Shown here piece after piece: positions 14,825 to 31,622 of a stretch of 64,000 nt of DNA. Origin of the DNA: Tardibacter chloracetimidivorans (GTDB taxonomy: Bacteria; Pseudomonadota; Alphaproteobacteria; Sphingomonadales; Sphingomonadaceae); assembly GCF_001890385.1 (NCBI RefSeq), contig NZ_CP018221.1, positions 607,501 to 671,500 of the forward strand, written 5' to 3'. The notes under the pieces were generated by a model. The model was not told where the DNA came from. It did not search any database and saw nothing but the letters and a program-made list of their open reading frames with translations. Position 1 is the stretch's first letter. Each line of letters starts with the position of its first letter. Made by a program: the position numbers and the translations under genes.

Positions 14825-15230
14825 TTTAATTTTCCCCCGCAGGCAATGGTGGGTCTAAAAAATGTGCCGGTTGCGGTTCTTGGGTCTGGCAAACTCCGGC
14901 GGTCCTGCGTTTCATTCTTGTCGAACGCTTGTAAGCCGCCACGATAAGCCCCTGCGGCGGCGTCCATAACCAGACATTTTGGGCAATATGCTTTGTAGAT
15001 ACCCAGCGGTCGGTGGAGTAGCATCCGGGTTCGTAAATGCCCGGAAAGGTCAAAAGGGGTAGGCGCGGCGAAAGAGAGTGGCCCCGATGGATGCGGCATG
15101 GCGCCGATGCCGCGACGACGGATCAATTCAGCGCCAAAAGCGCAAAAGGATGATGCCCGGAGTTCCACATAGGATGTCGCAGCCGGCTCGCTAAGTTCCG
15201 GCGACGGCGTTTTCGTAAAGTGCAAACATC
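14825..15230. promoter_or_regulatory. 406-bp divergent intergenic region between the two arms of the polysaccharide locus
   Basis: There is no credible gene here. Open frames exist on the minus strand, but they have poor codon bias and no recognisable product. Position implies promoters for both the minus-strand export operon (start 14824) and the plus-strand glycosyltransferase operon (start 15231). I searched for sigma-54 -24/-12 elements on both strands and saw none. No clear palindrome or riboswitch fold stood out. The exact promoters are not assigned. Confidence 0.5.
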
Positions 15231-16493
15231 ATGGATGCTGGCCACATCACCTCTGCCTTTTCCCCGCAAGAAGCGAAGGACGCGACCTCTCGTGCGGGGT
15301 CTCGCCCCGTGCCCCGTTCTTCACGGACGGACAGCGATCAACCCGCCACCATCTGTTTTCCCTTCGCCGGCGGCATCATGGGCGGAAGCCATATCTCCGC
15401 GCTGAAGCTCATCGGGGCGCTGGACCGGAAGAAGTACCGGCCGCTGATCGTCCTGCACGACGATCGCGGCCAGTTCGCCGATTTCCTGCGGGCCGAGGGC
15501 GTCGCCTTCGAGCATGCGCCCACGCCCTGGCATCTGGCCCCGGCAAGCCGCGCCGAAACCATCGGCAAGATGATGGGCGCGCCAAAGGCACTGGCCTCGC
15601 TCGCGCGCTATCTCCAGCAGCGGGAGGTCCGGATCGTCCATACCAACGAAGGGCCGATGCACGTCACCTGGGGCCCGGCGGCGCGCCTGGCGGGTCGCAA
15701 GCTGCTCTGGCATCATCGCAGCAGCCCCCGGGCGAAAGGCCTCAGGTTTCTGGCGCCGCTGCTTGCCCATCGGGTCGCGTCCGTTTCCCGGTTCGCCGCG
15801 CCTCGGCCAGGCGTGTTTTCCGCAGCCGGCAGATGCACCGTCGTCCACAGTCCGTTCGACACCGATGCGCCGAAGGCGGACCGTGTCGTCAGCCGGACCG
15901 ATGCGATCAAGGAACTGGGCATCGCCGCTGAAACGCCCATTCTGGGCTATTTCGGCAATATGGTGACGCGCAAGCGGCCCTTGCTGTTCGTGGAGACGAT
16001 CGCGGCCATCAACCGCCGCCGCCCGAACAATCCGGCAATCGGCCTGTTGTTCGGCTCTCCGCTGGAAGATGGCCTCTATCAGGCGGTGATCGCACGCGCG
16101 GCGGAGTTGGGCGTTTCCGATCACATCCGGATGATGGGCTTTCGCCACCCGTCCGAGCCGTGGATGGCGGCCTGCGACGCCCTTCTGGTTACTGCCGTGG
16201 ACGAACCCTTCGGCCGCACGCTGATCGAGGCGATGCTGCTCGAAACGCCGGTCATAGCGGCCAATTCGGGCGGCAATCCAGAGGCGATCGAAGACGGGGA
16301 GAACGGGCTGATTGTCCCCCCCGATGATCCGGAGAGCTTCGCCGAGGCGGCGCTGGCGCTGATCGATGACCCGGCAAGGGCGAAGCGGATCGCCGTCACG
16401 GCGCATGAGCAGGCGCTCAGCCGCTTCGGCGTGGAGCGCCACTGCGCCCAGATAAGCGCGATCTACGACCAGCTTTTGGCGGACGCGGCATGA
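15231..16493 (+). CDS. glycosyltransferase family 4
   Basis: This 420-residue cytoplasmic GT-B enzyme is of the GT4 type. The N-terminal half holds the acceptor domain with FPFAGGIMGGSHISALKLI. The C-terminal half has the nucleotide-sugar domain with GYFGNMVTRKRPLLF and the E-x7-E motif EPFGRTLIEAM, followed by NPEAIEDGENGLIVP. The first about 38 residues before the fold are atypical, so the true start may be later (for example GTG 15309). ATG 15231 has no clear ribosome site. It is the first gene of the right arm and overlaps the next transferase by four bases. It adds one sugar to the lipid-linked repeat unit; donor and linkage are unknown. Confidence 0.85.
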   Translation: MDAGHITSAFSPQEAKDATSRAGSRPVPRSSRTDSDQPATICFPFAGGIMGGSHISALKLIGALDRKKYRPLIVLHDDRGQFADFLRAEGVAFEHAPTPWHLAPASRAETIGKMMGAPKALASLARYLQQREVRIVHTNEGPMHVTWGPAARLAGRKLLWHHRSSPRAKGLRFLAPLLAHRVASVSRFAAPRPGVFSAAGRCTVVHSPFDTDAPKADRVVSRTDAIKELGIAAETPILGYFGNMVTRKRPLLFVETIAAINRRRPNNPAIGLLFGSPLEDGLYQAVIARAAELGVSDHIRMMGFRHPSEPWMAACDALLVTAVDEPFGRTLIEAMLLETPVIAANSGGNPEAIEDGENGLIVPPDDPESFAEAALALIDDPARAKRIAVTAHEQALSRFGVERHCAQISAIYDQLLADAA

Positions 16494-26073: not shown

Positions 26074-26802
26074 ATGTCCGAGGAAATTCGTGTATCCATC
26101 GTAGGACGCAATGAAATTGTGAGAGAAGGCCTGAAACGGATCCTCCTCGATCAATCTTTTATTGTCGAATGGGCCGTGGCGGAGAGCGAAACGCTCTCCC
26201 GATCGATCGACAGCTCAAATCCACCTGATCTGATCATCGTGGACGGGCACTCGGACAACAAGAATTACCACGTATGCCGTGATCTTCACAGCCAGTTTCC
26301 ACAGTCGCACATCGTGTTGATGGCCGACGAGTTTCAGGTCGAAGATGTCGCCAACGCCTTTGGGGCCGGAGTCGACGGCTATCTTGTAAAGGCCATTTCG
26401 TGCGAGCCGCTCGGCAGCGCGCTCCGGCTGGTCGCCCATGGCGAGAAGGTCATCCCCTCGCAGATCGTCGAGGCGCTTGCCGATCCGGTCTGGCGCAACG
26501 GCGCAAGGGCGTTGGACACCGGCAAGCTCGATCTCAACCTGTCCGACCGGGAAATCGAAATTCTCAGGTGCCTTGTAACAGGCGACGCAAACAAGATCAT
26601 CGCCCGCAGGCTCGACATCACGGAAGCGACCGTCAAGGTTCACATCAAGGCCATCCTCCGGAAATTGAGGGTTATGAACCGGACGCAGGCGGCCATCTGG
26701 GCGGTCACGCGCGGGCTGCATCAGGACGAGCCTGTCGCGACCGCGTCTATCCACAATCTCGCCGACCAGCCGCGCCCCCTGCTCCGCGCCGCCGGAGCCT
26801 GA
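26074..26802 (+). CDS. LuxR/NarL-family response regulator with degenerate acidic pocket
   Basis: This 242-residue regulator has a receiver-like domain (1 to about 120) and a C-terminal LuxR helix-turn-helix (LNLSDREIEILRCLVTGDAN, TEATVKVHIKAILRKL). The phosphoacceptor Asp57 (LIIVDGHSD) and Lys106 (YLVKAIS) are present. The two N-terminal acidic residues that bind magnesium are Gly11 and Arg12 (SIVGRNEIVREG), and the Thr/Ser switch position appears to be Ala84. Phosphorylation by the normal route is therefore doubtful. It sits behind a sigma-54-like promoter and is closed by a strong terminator, so it forms its own unit. No histidine kinase gene is nearby. It probably controls the polysaccharide locus. 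Confidence 0.9.
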   Translation: MSEEIRVSIVGRNEIVREGLKRILLDQSFIVEWAVAESETLSRSIDSSNPPDLIIVDGHSDNKNYHVCRDLHSQFPQSHIVLMADEFQVEDVANAFGAGVDGYLVKAISCEPLGSALRLVAHGEKVIPSQIVEALADPVWRNGARALDTGKLDLNLSDREIEILRCLVTGDANKIIARRLDITEATVKVHIKAILRKLRVMNRTQAAIWAVTRGLHQDEPVATASIHNLADQPRPLLRAAGA

Positions 26803-27143
26803 CGACCGGCCAGGCACTGTCGATATCGATGCCGGGGCGCTCGCATGGGCGCCCCGGCATCGTTTTCCTGATTCCCGTCTCCGGCGCCGCCCAGTGCGCC
26901 CCTTTGCATATACTCCTTGAGGAGTAGCCGCATGATCAGGCGGGAATTCTTCTACCTCCGGAGGCTAGTCGCATGCGCCGCCGACACCCATCATGCTCTC
27001 TGGCAATGGCCTGAAAGCTGCGCAACCATGCCCGGCTAGAGCCACAGAGGACCGCCCGCGCGGCACGCGCCGCAGAGCAGGCAAGCCAAGAGGAATACAA
27101 TGTCGGACAGCCGCGCCAGGGTATTTTTCGTCGGGATTGAGAT
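26803..27143. promoter_or_regulatory. 341-bp non-coding leader before the Wzc-type kinase gene
   Basis: After the terminator, about 275 bases precede the kinase start and must hold its promoter. Visible elements are a short inverted repeat, TACTCC-TTGA-GGAGTA (26911-26926), and a 10-bp palindrome CCTCCGGAGG near 26956. Either could be an operator or an mRNA hairpin. No sigma-54 element with correct spacing and no credible open frame were seen. Confidence 0.45.
26827..26866 (+). terminator. strong rho-independent terminator
   Basis: A perfect 14-bp stem pairs 26827-26840 with 26849-26862 around an 8-base loop and is followed by TTTT (26863-26866). It lies 25 bases after the stop of the regulator gene and separates it from the kinase gene downstream. 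Confidence 0.93.
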
Positions 27144-29444
27144 ATGAACGCGCCAATCTTCATGACGGATCAGACGACATCGGATTCCGGGCCTCATGGC
27201 TCGCGCGTGATGGGGCCCTCCGAGCTTCTTCGGATATTGCGTCGGCGGCGTCTCATCATCTTCCTGACGATCGGCCTTATCGTGGGCCTGACCGCGCTCG
27301 TCCTGCAAACGGTGACTCCGCTTTACAGGTCGGAAGCCATCGTGATCGTGGAATCGCCCGAAGCCCCGGGCGATGACCCGGCCGCCACCGTCGCCAAGGC
27401 GCGTGAAAACGAGATCAGGGTCATCACCTTCCTGCAACTTCTCCAGTCGCGGGCAATGGCCGGGCGTGTCGTCCATGACCTCGCGCTGGTCGACGACCGC
27501 GAGTTCAATCCCGGCGCCGACCCCGACAAGCCTGCGATGGTGGAACCGAGCTTCTGGGAACGGCTGAAGAGCGTTTTCACCGGGTCGGACCCTGCGCCCG
27601 CAACCACGGCGGAACCGCCGCAGCCGATCGCCTCGACGCCTGAGACCTTGCGCGAGGCGGTGATCGACAGGCTAATCGACAATGTGTCGGTCGACCAGAT
27701 CAACAAGTCGAACATGATCAAGGTGACCGCCTATTCGGTGAGCGCGGAAAAAGCCCAGCGAATCGCAAACAAGCTCGCGTCGGTGGCGATGCTTCACCAG
27801 ATCGAGAAGCGGGAAAACGCCTCCGAGGAGACGGTCGCCTCTCTCACCAAGAGGGTAGCCGAGTTGCGCGAGCAGGTGCTTGAGGCCGATGAGCGCGTCG
27901 CCACCTACAGGAAGCGGCACGGCATCACCCAGGGCATGAGCGACCTGACCCAGATGGACCGGCTGGCCTCCGAACTGGCCGGAGCGCGCGCCACCAGGGC
28001 GGATGCGGAAGCCCGGTCGAGCACGATCGGAGCAGCCTCGTCCGCCGGGGCAGCCGCTTCTCCCCTGCTTGCCGACTTGCAGACGCAGGAGATCACGCTT
28101 CAGCGCAGGATCGCCGAACTCTCGGCCATGTACGGCCAGGGCCATCCGGACATGCAGAACGCAAAGGCGCAGCTTTCGCAGGTTCAGACCCGCATCTCCG
28201 AAGAGCTTTCCCGCGCGAGCATTGGCCTTCAGGCTGAAGCTGCTGCACGGCGAAGCCGGGAAGCGCAGCTTGCCGGCGAGATGGGCTCCCTGAAGGCGCG
28301 CGCGCTTCAGCAGGGCGTGGAAAATGTGGCGCTGATGGACCTGGAGCGCGACGCCGAGACCAATCGGACGCTCTACGTCTCTCTCCTCAGCCGCCTCAAG
28401 GAGCTGGAACGGCAGGACGACGTCGGCCAATCGGATGCGAACTTCATTTCGCGCGCCGCAGTGCCGCTGTCGCCCAGCTATCCCGCGACGAAGCGGATTC
28501 TGGCCGTTGCCCTGGTCGCAAGTCTGGTCCTGGCCGCGATCCTCGCGTTCATTGCCGAATCCATGGACGGCCGCATTCGGACCAGCGAGCAGATGGAATC
28601 GCTGACCGGCTTCCCCGCGCTCGCCATGGTTCCGGAAAAGCCTGAAAACTGGGGCGATCTGCCGCCCTATGTGGCCATCATCGAACGACCGTGTTCGGCC
28701 TTTTCCGAGGCGCTCAGATCCGTTCAGCAGGAACTGGCCGCCCGGGCGCGGGACAATGCGGCGCAGACGGTGGTCATCACCTCCCCACTGCCGGGCGAGG
28801 GCAAGACGACCCTGTCGATGAGCCTGGCCGCCGCTGCGGCCGCCACCGGAATCGAATCGGTCATCGTCGACCTCGATCTCCGCAGGCCGGGGCTGCAGAA
28901 CATGTCGGAGCAGATCGCTGCCGGACCGGACCTTCTCGATTTCGTCGACGGGGATTGCGCGATCAACGAAATCCTCCGCTGGGATCCGCGCGTACCGAAG
29001 CTGGCGATGATCGGCGTGAAACGCGCCGCCAAGGACCCGGGCGCGACTTTGTCCTCTCCTCGCCTCCGCACGCTTCTGGAGGAATTGCGCCAGCGCTACA
29101 AATTCATCGTTCTGAATACCGCGCCGATTCTTCCCGTGCGCGACGCCAAGCTGCTCGCGGCGCAGGCGGACGAGGTGCTGATGATCGCGCACTGGGCGAA
29201 GACTCCACCCGACGCCGTCAGGTCCGCCACCCGCATTTTGGGGCGCACCCTGACGGGCGCTATCCTCAATAGGGTCGACTACAAGAAGCACGCCGGGCTG
29301 GTTTATGGCGACGCCATTCAGCACTATGCGAAATATTCGCAATATTATGGAGAAACAGCGCCGGAGGACGCCGAGACGACCAGCGAGCCGGCCGCGCCCG
29401 CATGGCGTCAACTGCTCTCCGGCCTTATCCGCAAGGCGGCTTGA
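27144..29444 (+). CDS. wzc: Wzc-like polysaccharide co-polymerase with C-terminal tyrosine-kinase domain
   Basis: This is a 766-residue inner-membrane protein of the PCP-2a/BY-kinase class that governs chain length and export. It has an N-terminal Wzz domain with a first membrane helix (IIFLTIGLIVGLTALVLQ), a long periplasmic coiled coil (about 230-430), and a second helix near 455-475. The cytoplasmic kinase has Walker A SPLPGEGKTTLS (about 548-556) and Walker A' VIVDLDLRRPG. At the Walker B position it has IVLNTAPILP, with Asn658 where Asp is usual. The C-terminal tyrosine cluster is present (LVYGDAIQHYAKYSQYYGE). It lies two bases upstream of the second regulator gene. The partner phosphatase (Wzb) is not in the window. 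Confidence 0.93.
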   Translation: MNAPIFMTDQTTSDSGPHGSRVMGPSELLRILRRRRLIIFLTIGLIVGLTALVLQTVTPLYRSEAIVIVESPEAPGDDPAATVAKARENEIRVITFLQLLQSRAMAGRVVHDLALVDDREFNPGADPDKPAMVEPSFWERLKSVFTGSDPAPATTAEPPQPIASTPETLREAVIDRLIDNVSVDQINKSNMIKVTAYSVSAEKAQRIANKLASVAMLHQIEKRENASEETVASLTKRVAELREQVLEADERVATYRKRHGITQGMSDLTQMDRLASELAGARATRADAEARSSTIGAASSAGAAASPLLADLQTQEITLQRRIAELSAMYGQGHPDMQNAKAQLSQVQTRISEELSRASIGLQAEAAARRSREAQLAGEMGSLKARALQQGVENVALMDLERDAETNRTLYVSLLSRLKELERQDDVGQSDANFISRAAVPLSPSYPATKRILAVALVASLVLAAILAFIAESMDGRIRTSEQMESLTGFPALAMVPEKPENWGDLPPYVAIIERPCSAFSEALRSVQQELAARARDNAAQTVVITSPLPGEGKTTLSMSLAAAAAATGIESVIVDLDLRRPGLQNMSEQIAAGPDLLDFVDGDCAINEILRWDPRVPKLAMIGVKRAAKDPGATLSSPRLRTLLEELRQRYKFIVLNTAPILPVRDAKLLAAQADEVLMIAHWAKTPPDAVRSATRILGRTLTGAILNRVDYKKHAGLVYGDAIQHYAKYSQYYGETAPEDAETTSEPAAPAWRQLLSGLIRKAA

Positions 29445-29446
29445 GC

Positions 29447-30229
29447 GTGGCGGAGATCATCCCGCTTCTGGAGACGCGCCGTGCGCAGCGCGGCTGGAGC
29501 GACGGGCACGACAATGTGTCGCGCATCGTGCCCAAGCGGGTATCGGCCAGGCCCAGCCGCTCCGATACGGCGGATGCGGCGCTTCAGGGCTTTCGGATTC
29601 TGGTGATTGATCCGCAGCCGCTCACCCGCAATTGCCTGATCGCCGCGATGCGCGATATCGCGAACCTCGTCGACATAACCGCCGTGGAAGGCGCGGAGGA
29701 AGCCGCCAGGCTGACCAATAGCGGGGCGCTGTTCGACGTCGCCATACACAATCTCGATCACAGCGCGCCCGATCCCGGCAGCCTGATGCAGGCGGTATCA
29801 CCGGTGCTTTCGGCAATTGAGGACATACCGCTGATCGTCCTTGCCGCCAGCACCGAAACCTCGTTCCTGACAACTGCGATGAAGCTGGGCGTCAGCGCCT
29901 ATCTCACCAGCGACACGCCGCTTGCCACGATGCTGGACGCAATCCGCCTCCTGTCGTCCGGCTGGATGATCTACCCTGCCTTCAAGCAGGAGGAGACGCC
30001 CCACGGCGGCCATCTTATCGCTCCCAGGGAGAATGGCGCCTCGCCGAGGCTGACCCCGCGGCAGGAACAGGTCCTCAAGTGCCTGGCGACCGGAATGCCC
30101 AACAAGACCATCGCCTTCCAGCTCAAGATGAGCGAAAGCACGGTGAAAGCGCACATCAAGGAAATCATGCAGCGGCTGGGTGCAGCCAACCGCACGCAGG
30201 TCGTCGCCCTGATGGGCAGGAACGACTAG
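29447..30229 (+). CDS. LuxR-family regulator with pseudo-receiver domain
   Basis: The protein has 260 residues from GTG 29447: about 48 extra N-terminal residues, a receiver-like fold (about 49-170), then a LuxR helix-turn-helix (LTPRQEQVLKCLATGMPNKT, SESTVKAHIKEIMQRLG). At the phosphoacceptor position the residue is Asn102 (FDVAIHNLD), and the conserved Lys is Ser155 (AYLTSDTP). It therefore cannot be phosphorylated in the normal way. The gene begins two bases after the kinase stop and 13 bases before wzx, so it is expressed with the export machinery. ATG 29402, inside the kinase gene, is an alternative start. The C-terminal 60 residues resemble those of the regulator at 26074, suggesting related targets. 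Confidence 0.88.
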   Translation: MAEIIPLLETRRAQRGWSDGHDNVSRIVPKRVSARPSRSDTADAALQGFRILVIDPQPLTRNCLIAAMRDIANLVDITAVEGAEEAARLTNSGALFDVAIHNLDHSAPDPGSLMQAVSPVLSAIEDIPLIVLAASTETSFLTTAMKLGVSAYLTSDTPLATMLDAIRLLSSGWMIYPAFKQEETPHGGHLIAPRENGASPRLTPRQEQVLKCLATGMPNKTIAFQLKMSESTVKAHIKEIMQRLGAANRTQVVALMGRND

Positions 30230-30242
30230 GGGTCGGACATTT

Positions 30243-31622
30243 ATGATCCGCTACGGGAAATCACGCTGGCGGTCGGTCGTGAGCGCCGCCGGCCAGTGGC
30301 GCGGCGATGAGCCGCTGCGCACCCGGCTGGTCAACATCGCTCACCTGATGTCGGGAAATCTGGCAAGCGGGCTGATCAGCCTTGCCGCCATCGCCCTGAC
30401 CGCGCGGGCGCTGGGTCCGGCGAGCTACGGCATTCTGGCGCTCGCCATCGCCTATGTCCGCGTTGTCGAACGCCTCGTCACCTTTCAGAGCTGGCAACCG
30501 CTCATCAAATATGGCGCGGAGGTCACCGATCCCGAACACGCAGCGGATTTCAAGTCGCTGCTGAAATTCGGTCTTCTCCTCGATGTTGCAGGGGCGGTCG
30601 CCGCATGGGTGATCGCAACGGCGCTCGCCCTCCTGGCCAGCCCGCTGTTCGGTTGGGACAACCAGGTGATGACGCTGGTCGCCATCTACTGCACCGTGCT
30701 TCTGTTCAACATAAGCGGCACGCCAACCGCGATCCTGCGCCTCTATGGCCGGTATCATGCGGCAGCCTATGGCCCCATTGGAAATGCGCTGTTGCGCGTC
30801 GGGCTATGCTACCTCGGCATCCGCAACGGGGCCGGGCTCGACTATTTCGTGTTCGTCTGGATGGCGACCCAGATCCTCGGATCGCTCACCTTCCTCGGAT
30901 TCGGCATACGTGCCCTCCGCGCCAACGGCATCAGGGGGGTTCTCGCCGCGCCGATCAAGGGCGTGACCCAACGCTTCCACGGCCTCTGGAGCTTTGCCTG
31001 GCAGAGCAATCTGTCGCTCACCCTGCGTTCCAGCGCGCAGCAGCTCGATACGCTGCTGGTGGGTGCGCTCGCCGATCCGGCGTCGGCGGGCTTCTATCAT
31101 ATCGCCAAGCAGGTCGGGCGCATGGCGCAGCAGATCGGCGTGCATGTGCAGGCGGTCCTGTACCCCGATGTGGCAAGGCTGTGGGCGGCGGGCGCAATCC
31201 AGGAGTTTCGCCGCGCCATATTGCAGGTCGAGGTGATGCTCGCCGCCTTTGGGATAGCAGTCGTCCTGCTCCTGCTGGCTGCGGCAAAGCCGATTCTGCT
31301 CTACACCGCCGGGCCTGCCTTCCTTGGCGCCGCGCCGCTCATGATCGTCCAGGGCATTGCCGTGGCGGCGATGCTGCTCAGCTTTCCGGCCCGCTCCGCC
31401 CTGCTCGCCATGGGTCATCAGCGGCAGGTGCTGAACGTGGCGATGGTTTCCACGGTCGCTTTCCACTGCGCGGCGCTGGCGCTGATCCCGCTCATCGGCG
31501 CAATGGGGGCGAATATCGCGCATATCCTGCTGGGTTTTGTCTGGCTGGTGATGCTGGGTACGCTATTGCGGCGGGAACTGAGCCACGCACCGCTCGCAGG
31601 CGCGCCTACCCCCTCCGTATAG
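30243..31622 (+). CDS. wzx: Wzx-type oligosaccharide flippase
   Basis: This 459-residue inner-membrane protein of the MOP/polysaccharide transporter family has about 12-14 hydrophobic helices. The N-terminal region (MSGNLASGLISLAAIALTAR ALGPASYG) is typical of Wzx/RfbX. It would flip undecaprenyl-diphosphate repeat units to the periplasm for polymerisation. It is the only flippase in the window, matching a Wzx/Wzy route. The gene follows the second regulator by 13 bases with a GGGG ribosome site before ATG 30243. Confidence 0.88.
   Translation: MIRYGKSRWRSVVSAAGQWRGDEPLRTRLVNIAHLMSGNLASGLISLAAIALTARALGPASYGILALAIAYVRVVERLVTFQSWQPLIKYGAEVTDPEHAADFKSLLKFGLLLDVAGAVAAWVIATALALLASPLFGWDNQVMTLVAIYCTVLLFNISGTPTAILRLYGRYHAAAYGPIGNALLRVGLCYLGIRNGAGLDYFVFVWMATQILGSLTFLGFGIRALRANGIRGVLAAPIKGVTQRFHGLWSFAWQSNLSLTLRSSAQQLDTLLVGALADPASAGFYHIAKQVGRMAQQIGVHVQAVLYPDVARLWAAGAIQEFRRAILQVEVMLAAFGIAVVLLLLAAAKPILLYTAGPAFLGAAPLMIVQGIAVAAMLLSFPARSALLAMGHQRQVLNVAMVSTVAFHCAALALIPLIGAMGANIAHILLGFVWLVMLGTLLRRELSHAPLAGAPTPSV

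Follow-up and report, generated by a model that had tools for sequence, protein, structure and literature searches.

The closest described parallels to the locus analyzed here are pairs of NarL- or LuxR-type regulators. In Streptomyces, BldM acts either alone or together with WhiI, a partner whose receiver pocket is degenerate (PMC4125116). The RcsB-RcsA system, discussed in the same paper, combines a NarL-type regulator with an accessory LuxR-type partner in the control of capsule synthesis. A 2025 review called it unknown what turns bacterial pseudo-receivers on or off (PMC12632262). By the definitions of that review the two regulators described below, T1 and T2, are both atypical response regulators, T2 being aspartate-less as well, a class that is already known. 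In our searches of open-licence papers we found no description of a conserved T1-T2 pair or wzc-T2 unit, nor of the regulation of a sphingomonad polysaccharide cluster by such a pair. The pair is conserved and genetically simple, with polysaccharide as its obvious output and Wzc as an obvious candidate partner, and for these reasons the switching of pseudo-receivers is directly testable here.

The window is a stretch of 64,000 nucleotides from Tardibacter chloracetimidivorans (contig NZ_CP018221.1). Judged by gene content it contains a Wzx/Wzy-type exopolysaccharide cluster (6183-42218, limits approximate) with genes for an outer-membrane barrel, a Wza-like export protein, Wzy, an aminotransferase, glycosyltransferases, a sugar transferase, an amidotransferase, and epimerases, and the T1-T2 pair lies inside it. 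As the original prediction had proposed, two LuxR-type regulators flank a wzc gene, and both ORFs were found: T1 (26074-26802, plus strand, 242 aa) and T2 (29447-30229, plus strand, 260 aa), on either side of wzc (27144-29444, plus strand), whose domain matches indicate a Wzz-type chain-length domain fused to a BY-kinase domain. T2 begins with a GTG 2 nt past the wzc stop (an alternative ATG at 29402 would overlap wzc), and a wzx-type flippase gene (30243-31622, plus strand), probably in the same operon, follows 13 nt downstream of T2; these gaps support the predicted co-transcription of T2 with wzc and wzx. T1 is set apart from the wzc operon by a strong terminator-like hairpin on the plus strand at 26827-26862, an inverted repeat of 16 pairs, 13 of them G-C, followed by TTTT. 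The genome encodes 13 GerE proteins, T1 and T2 included. The claim that no histidine kinase is near also held, since none is encoded within 80 kb of the pair and the closest HATPase_c gene is ~80 kb off. The locus lacks the nearby kinase gene of a two-component system, and a distant kinase is possible.

Both proteins combine a receiver-like domain with a C-terminal GerE HTH, which places them in the NarL/FixJ (LuxR-HTH) class. In domain searches T1 matched GerE at 2.8e-20 and Response_reg at 3.7e-8. In an alignment to NarL, the pocket residues DD1, DD2, D, T, and K correspond to G11, R12, D57, A84, and K106 of T1, so that DD1, DD2, and T are lost while the phosphoacceptor Asp57 and Lys106 are retained. 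The AlphaFold2 model of T1 (mean pLDDT 87) has beta1 at 5-10, beta3 at 53-57, beta4 at 79-84, and beta5 at 102-105, with the pocket residues at the expected strand ends and Asp57 ending beta3. The identification of Gly11-Arg12 as the former acidic pocket was thus borne out. By sequence, however, T1 is not completely disabled, because Asp57 and Lys106, which had been left unmentioned, remain; with Asp57 present, T1 is not aspartate-less. From what is known of the family, the metal site on which ordinary phosphotransfer depends is likely missing from T1.

T2 matched GerE at 5e-19 and gave no Response_reg match at E <= 0.001. The same NarL positions in T2 are D55, P56, N102, Ala, and S155, meaning that DD2, D, T, and K are lost and only the first acidic residue, Asp55, is retained. 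Model strands beta1 (50-54), beta3 (98-102), and beta5 (151-154) put the named residues where they would be expected, as in T1. The predicted assignment of Asn102 to the phosphoacceptor position and Ser155 to the lysine position is therefore confirmed by the NarL alignment, the model strand ends, and the family alignment alike, and T2 has an aspartate-less receiver. A MAFFT pairing offered Asp104 as the phosphoacceptor, and we rejected it since the strand ends and the family alignment place Asn102 there. With Asp55-Pro56, Asn102, and Ser155 in its pocket, T2 likely cannot be an Asp-phosphorylated receiver, in keeping with general knowledge of the family.

The idea that T1 and T2 are a local oddity did not survive comparison with other genomes, as both belong to recurrent families. 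Relatives of T1 with 33-59% identity are found throughout the family; the closest among named records are from Sphingomonas and Sphingobium, and more divergent ones come from Microvirga, Bradyrhizobium, Mesorhizobium, Skermanella, and others. We scored the pocket in 44 Sphingomonadales sequences, 40 of which have an intact N-terminus. The acidic pair is intact in none of these 40, both acidic residues are missing in 38, and DD2 is Arg or Lys in 22, while Asp57 is retained in 42/44 and Lys106 in 35/44. At the Ser/Thr position Ala, Val, or Phe is frequent, and among the other Alphaproteobacteria the Asp and the Lys are eroding too. Because the same losses recur in two protein families and many genomes, they are more than chance, and sequencing error or isolated pocket decay was rejected as their source. 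A basic residue at DD2 recalls the D13K change that makes CheY constitutively active, but the equivalent D13K change in EpsW of Myxococcus is not activating (PMC4671073), so a basic residue there does not by itself imply an active protein.

Counting a locus as a polysaccharide setting when >=2 core families lie within 10 kb, we found such a setting for 22 of 42 T1 loci in Sphingomonadales and 8 of 43 elsewhere, with markers that were taken from proteins of the window and overlook more divergent clusters. Comparison regulator loci qualified in 8/59 cases, five of which turned out to be T1 partners or T2-like regulators. By these markers many T1 loci lie outside recognizable polysaccharide clusters.

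Pairing of T1 with a second regulator is a recurrent theme in which the partner differs. A second LuxR-type gene adjoins the T1 relative at many Bradyrhizobium loci. Six of them (L122, L127, L130, L132, L137, and L150, at ~8.5-10.9 kb) encode T1 relatives with His or Gln at the phosphoacceptor position, divergent from a second regulator whose acidic pair is DR and which mostly retains Asp and Lys. Microvirga (L116, L118, L121, L125, L134, L141, and L143) has tandem pairs of T1 paralogues that have lost different parts of the pocket (C-K/Q..Asp..Ala and E-P/S..Asp or Gly..Lys). At two other loci (L072, 9158-10542; L084, 9793-11178), two divergent-pocket T1 paralogues, one with Asp changed to Glu, are arranged tail to tail away from recognized polysaccharide genes. 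HTH-only GerE proteins of 75-83 aa are encoded directly 3' of a T1 relative at L086 (11919-12170), L087 (10381-10611), and L170 (10980-11207), and may be another form of partner.

A T2 profile was searched against 398 genomes of the family, among which related genomes make the counts non-independent. T2 occurs in 8/398, the source genome included, and T1 in 59/398. T1 is present in every one of the eight genomes that carry a sphingomonad T2, at a distance of ~6 kb or less in six and 17-26 kb, within the same polysaccharide region, in two. Adding Sphingomonas sp. NFR04 gives nine T2 loci (a Sphingobium quisquiliarum record and G273 are apparently identical), with T1 in the same region at all nine, seven of them within ~6 kb and two at 17-26 kb. 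The linkage persists despite varying gene order: T1 wzc T2 wzx; T1 wzx(-) wzc T2; T1 wzx T2(-) wzc(-); T1 T2(-); and T1(-) T2. The phosphoacceptor Asp and the Lys are missing in 15/15 T2-like proteins; canonical receivers that the profile also caught (L089, L219-L221, L242, L247, L248, and L250) were excluded by their pockets. In phylogenetic trees the T1 clade has support of 100/99 and the sphingomonad T2 clade 100/98. Since the trees separate both clades, T1 and T2 are old, distinct lineages, and T2 as a recent T1 duplicate was rejected. In the second tree the source T1 and T2 each group with their NFR04 counterparts, which is consistent with joint inheritance.

These patterns suggest that the conserved T1-T2 pair is a phosphate-independent control module. 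The original idea that the two regulators are unconventional ones working without ordinary histidine-kinase signaling has good support in the case of T2 and is likely in that of T1. Our leading proposal, a phosphorylation-independent pair dedicated to the exopolysaccharide cluster, is tentative, and we would give it as a whole somewhat less than an even chance. T1 would be the main DNA-binding regulator of the cluster, active without phosphate. Because its metal site is lost and roughly half of the sphingomonad T1 relatives have a basic DD2, as in the CheY variant, T1 is probably set by its own amount or by a partner and not by a histidine kinase. T2, being aspartate-less, would serve as an accessory regulator that the wzc operon produces, its supply following Wzc expression. 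It would join T1, as a heterodimer or on a shared operator, and change the target choice or activity of T1. Transcription of the cluster would thereby be tied, as a form of feedback, to the expression level of the wzc-T2 operon. A T1-T2 heterodimer is plausible by analogy with BldM-WhiI and RcsA-RcsB, given the recurrent pairing. The recognition-helix cores are nearly identical (ATVKVHIK in T1, STVKAHIK in T2) and compatible with common half-sites, although such similarity is common within the NarL family.

A candidate operator lies in the region (14825-15377) from which the PolySyn2 and glycosyltransferase operons diverge and which holds their promoters. The element GCGCAAAAGGATGATGCCCGGA at 15140-15161 is weakly conserved, with similar elements in the corresponding position in four other genomes (G107, G043, G071, and G011). 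This non-palindromic element exceeded mononucleotide shuffles, a weak control, and clusters at the PolySyn2/glycosyltransferase divergent promoter, where the signal could partly reflect start sites. We also considered a palindromic operator near T1, which gave a weak signal only.

The same distribution can be read differently, with T1 and T2 as independent homodimers that have no physical partnership and are each governed only by expression level, a described mode of control for pseudo-receivers (PMC12632262). Most genomes with T1 lack T2, from which it follows that T1 has to be capable of working unaided, and outside the Sphingomonadaceae T2-like genes occur without T1 (G527) or away from polysaccharide genes (L239 and L241). 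However, linkage at 9/9 sphingomonad T2 loci despite rearrangement suggests joint function, and we regard independent action as possible but on the unlikely side.

The position of T2 beside wzc raises the possibility that T2 reads Wzc directly, its pseudo-receiver binding the cytoplasmic kinase domain or becoming tyrosine-phosphorylated, so that transcription would follow the assembly machine. T2 lies directly 3' of wzc on the same strand at 7/9 loci, with gaps of 2, 22, 13, 59, 23, -4, and -4 nt (gene starts from a simple caller), and the wzc-T2 unit is kept even when it is inverted relative to T1. Outside the family, a T2-like gene lies just 5' of wzc in G491. Of the original suggestion that the regulators may respond to the neighboring tyrosine kinase, a genetic tie to wzc is supported for T2, which overlaps wzc at two of these loci, and not for T1. 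But operon neighbors need no physical contact, and no wzc is near T2 at the remaining two of the nine loci (L064 and L073). Wzc itself keeps Walker A (GEGKT) and A' (DLDLR) and has a Tyr-rich stretch close to its C-terminus, but the Walker B Asp is replaced by Asn (FIVLNTAPILP), as in its relatives from these clusters (LNAPPILP, INAPAIL), a change that may alter kinase activity. On balance direct reading of Wzc by T2 seems unlikely. An extended version, in which the T2 pseudo-receiver would monitor the Wzc kinase/co-polymerase and pass the reading to T1 as direct feedback without a histidine kinase, is slightly more doubtful still.

VpsT binds c-di-GMP, and it is among the structural neighbors of both the T1 and T2 models. 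A small ligand, for example c-di-GMP or a sugar nucleotide, might likewise be recognized by the two pseudo-receivers, and there are known cases of pseudo-receivers that bind ligands (PMC12632262). VpsT is not the closest neighbor, however; NarL, LiaR, RcsB, and others match both models better, and inspection by eye revealed no VpsT-like c-di-GMP motif in T1 or T2, making this explanation improbable. We consider it very improbable that T1 continues to function as a receiver whose phosphorylation does without the acidic pair and relies on its strongly conserved Asp57 and Lys106, given that the metal site is absent in all Sphingomonadales T1, the Ser/Thr is often replaced, Asp and Lys erode in the wider family, and no kinase is encoded nearby.

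We return to the preferred reading, a phosphate-independent T1-T2 pair, in comparing the locus with known systems. Among Alphaproteobacteria, FlcA and AcfR are LuxR/NarL/FixJ-type regulators that affect flocculation or exopolysaccharide and are likened to T1 and T2 here by description only; AcfR has been described as phosphorylatable (PMC7945327). VpsT and CsgD are also atypical FixJ/LuxR-type regulators and control matrix genes (PMC12632262). The T1-T2 pair includes a regulator encoded in the wzc operon. To our knowledge, no wzc-linked partner is known for VpsT or CsgD. BldM and WhiI of Streptomyces are likewise two orphan atypical NarL-type regulators, but they govern development and the BldM pocket is complete, whereas T1 would be without a metal site and the T2 gene belongs to the wzc operon. 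BldM and WhiI form a heterodimer, while the evidence for a T1-T2 partnership is linkage, pairing, and similar recognition helices. RcsB of enterobacteria is a true phosphorelay receiver, whereas the T1-T2 pair has no histidine kinase gene nearby; RcsB is itself among the structural neighbors of both the T1 and T2 models.
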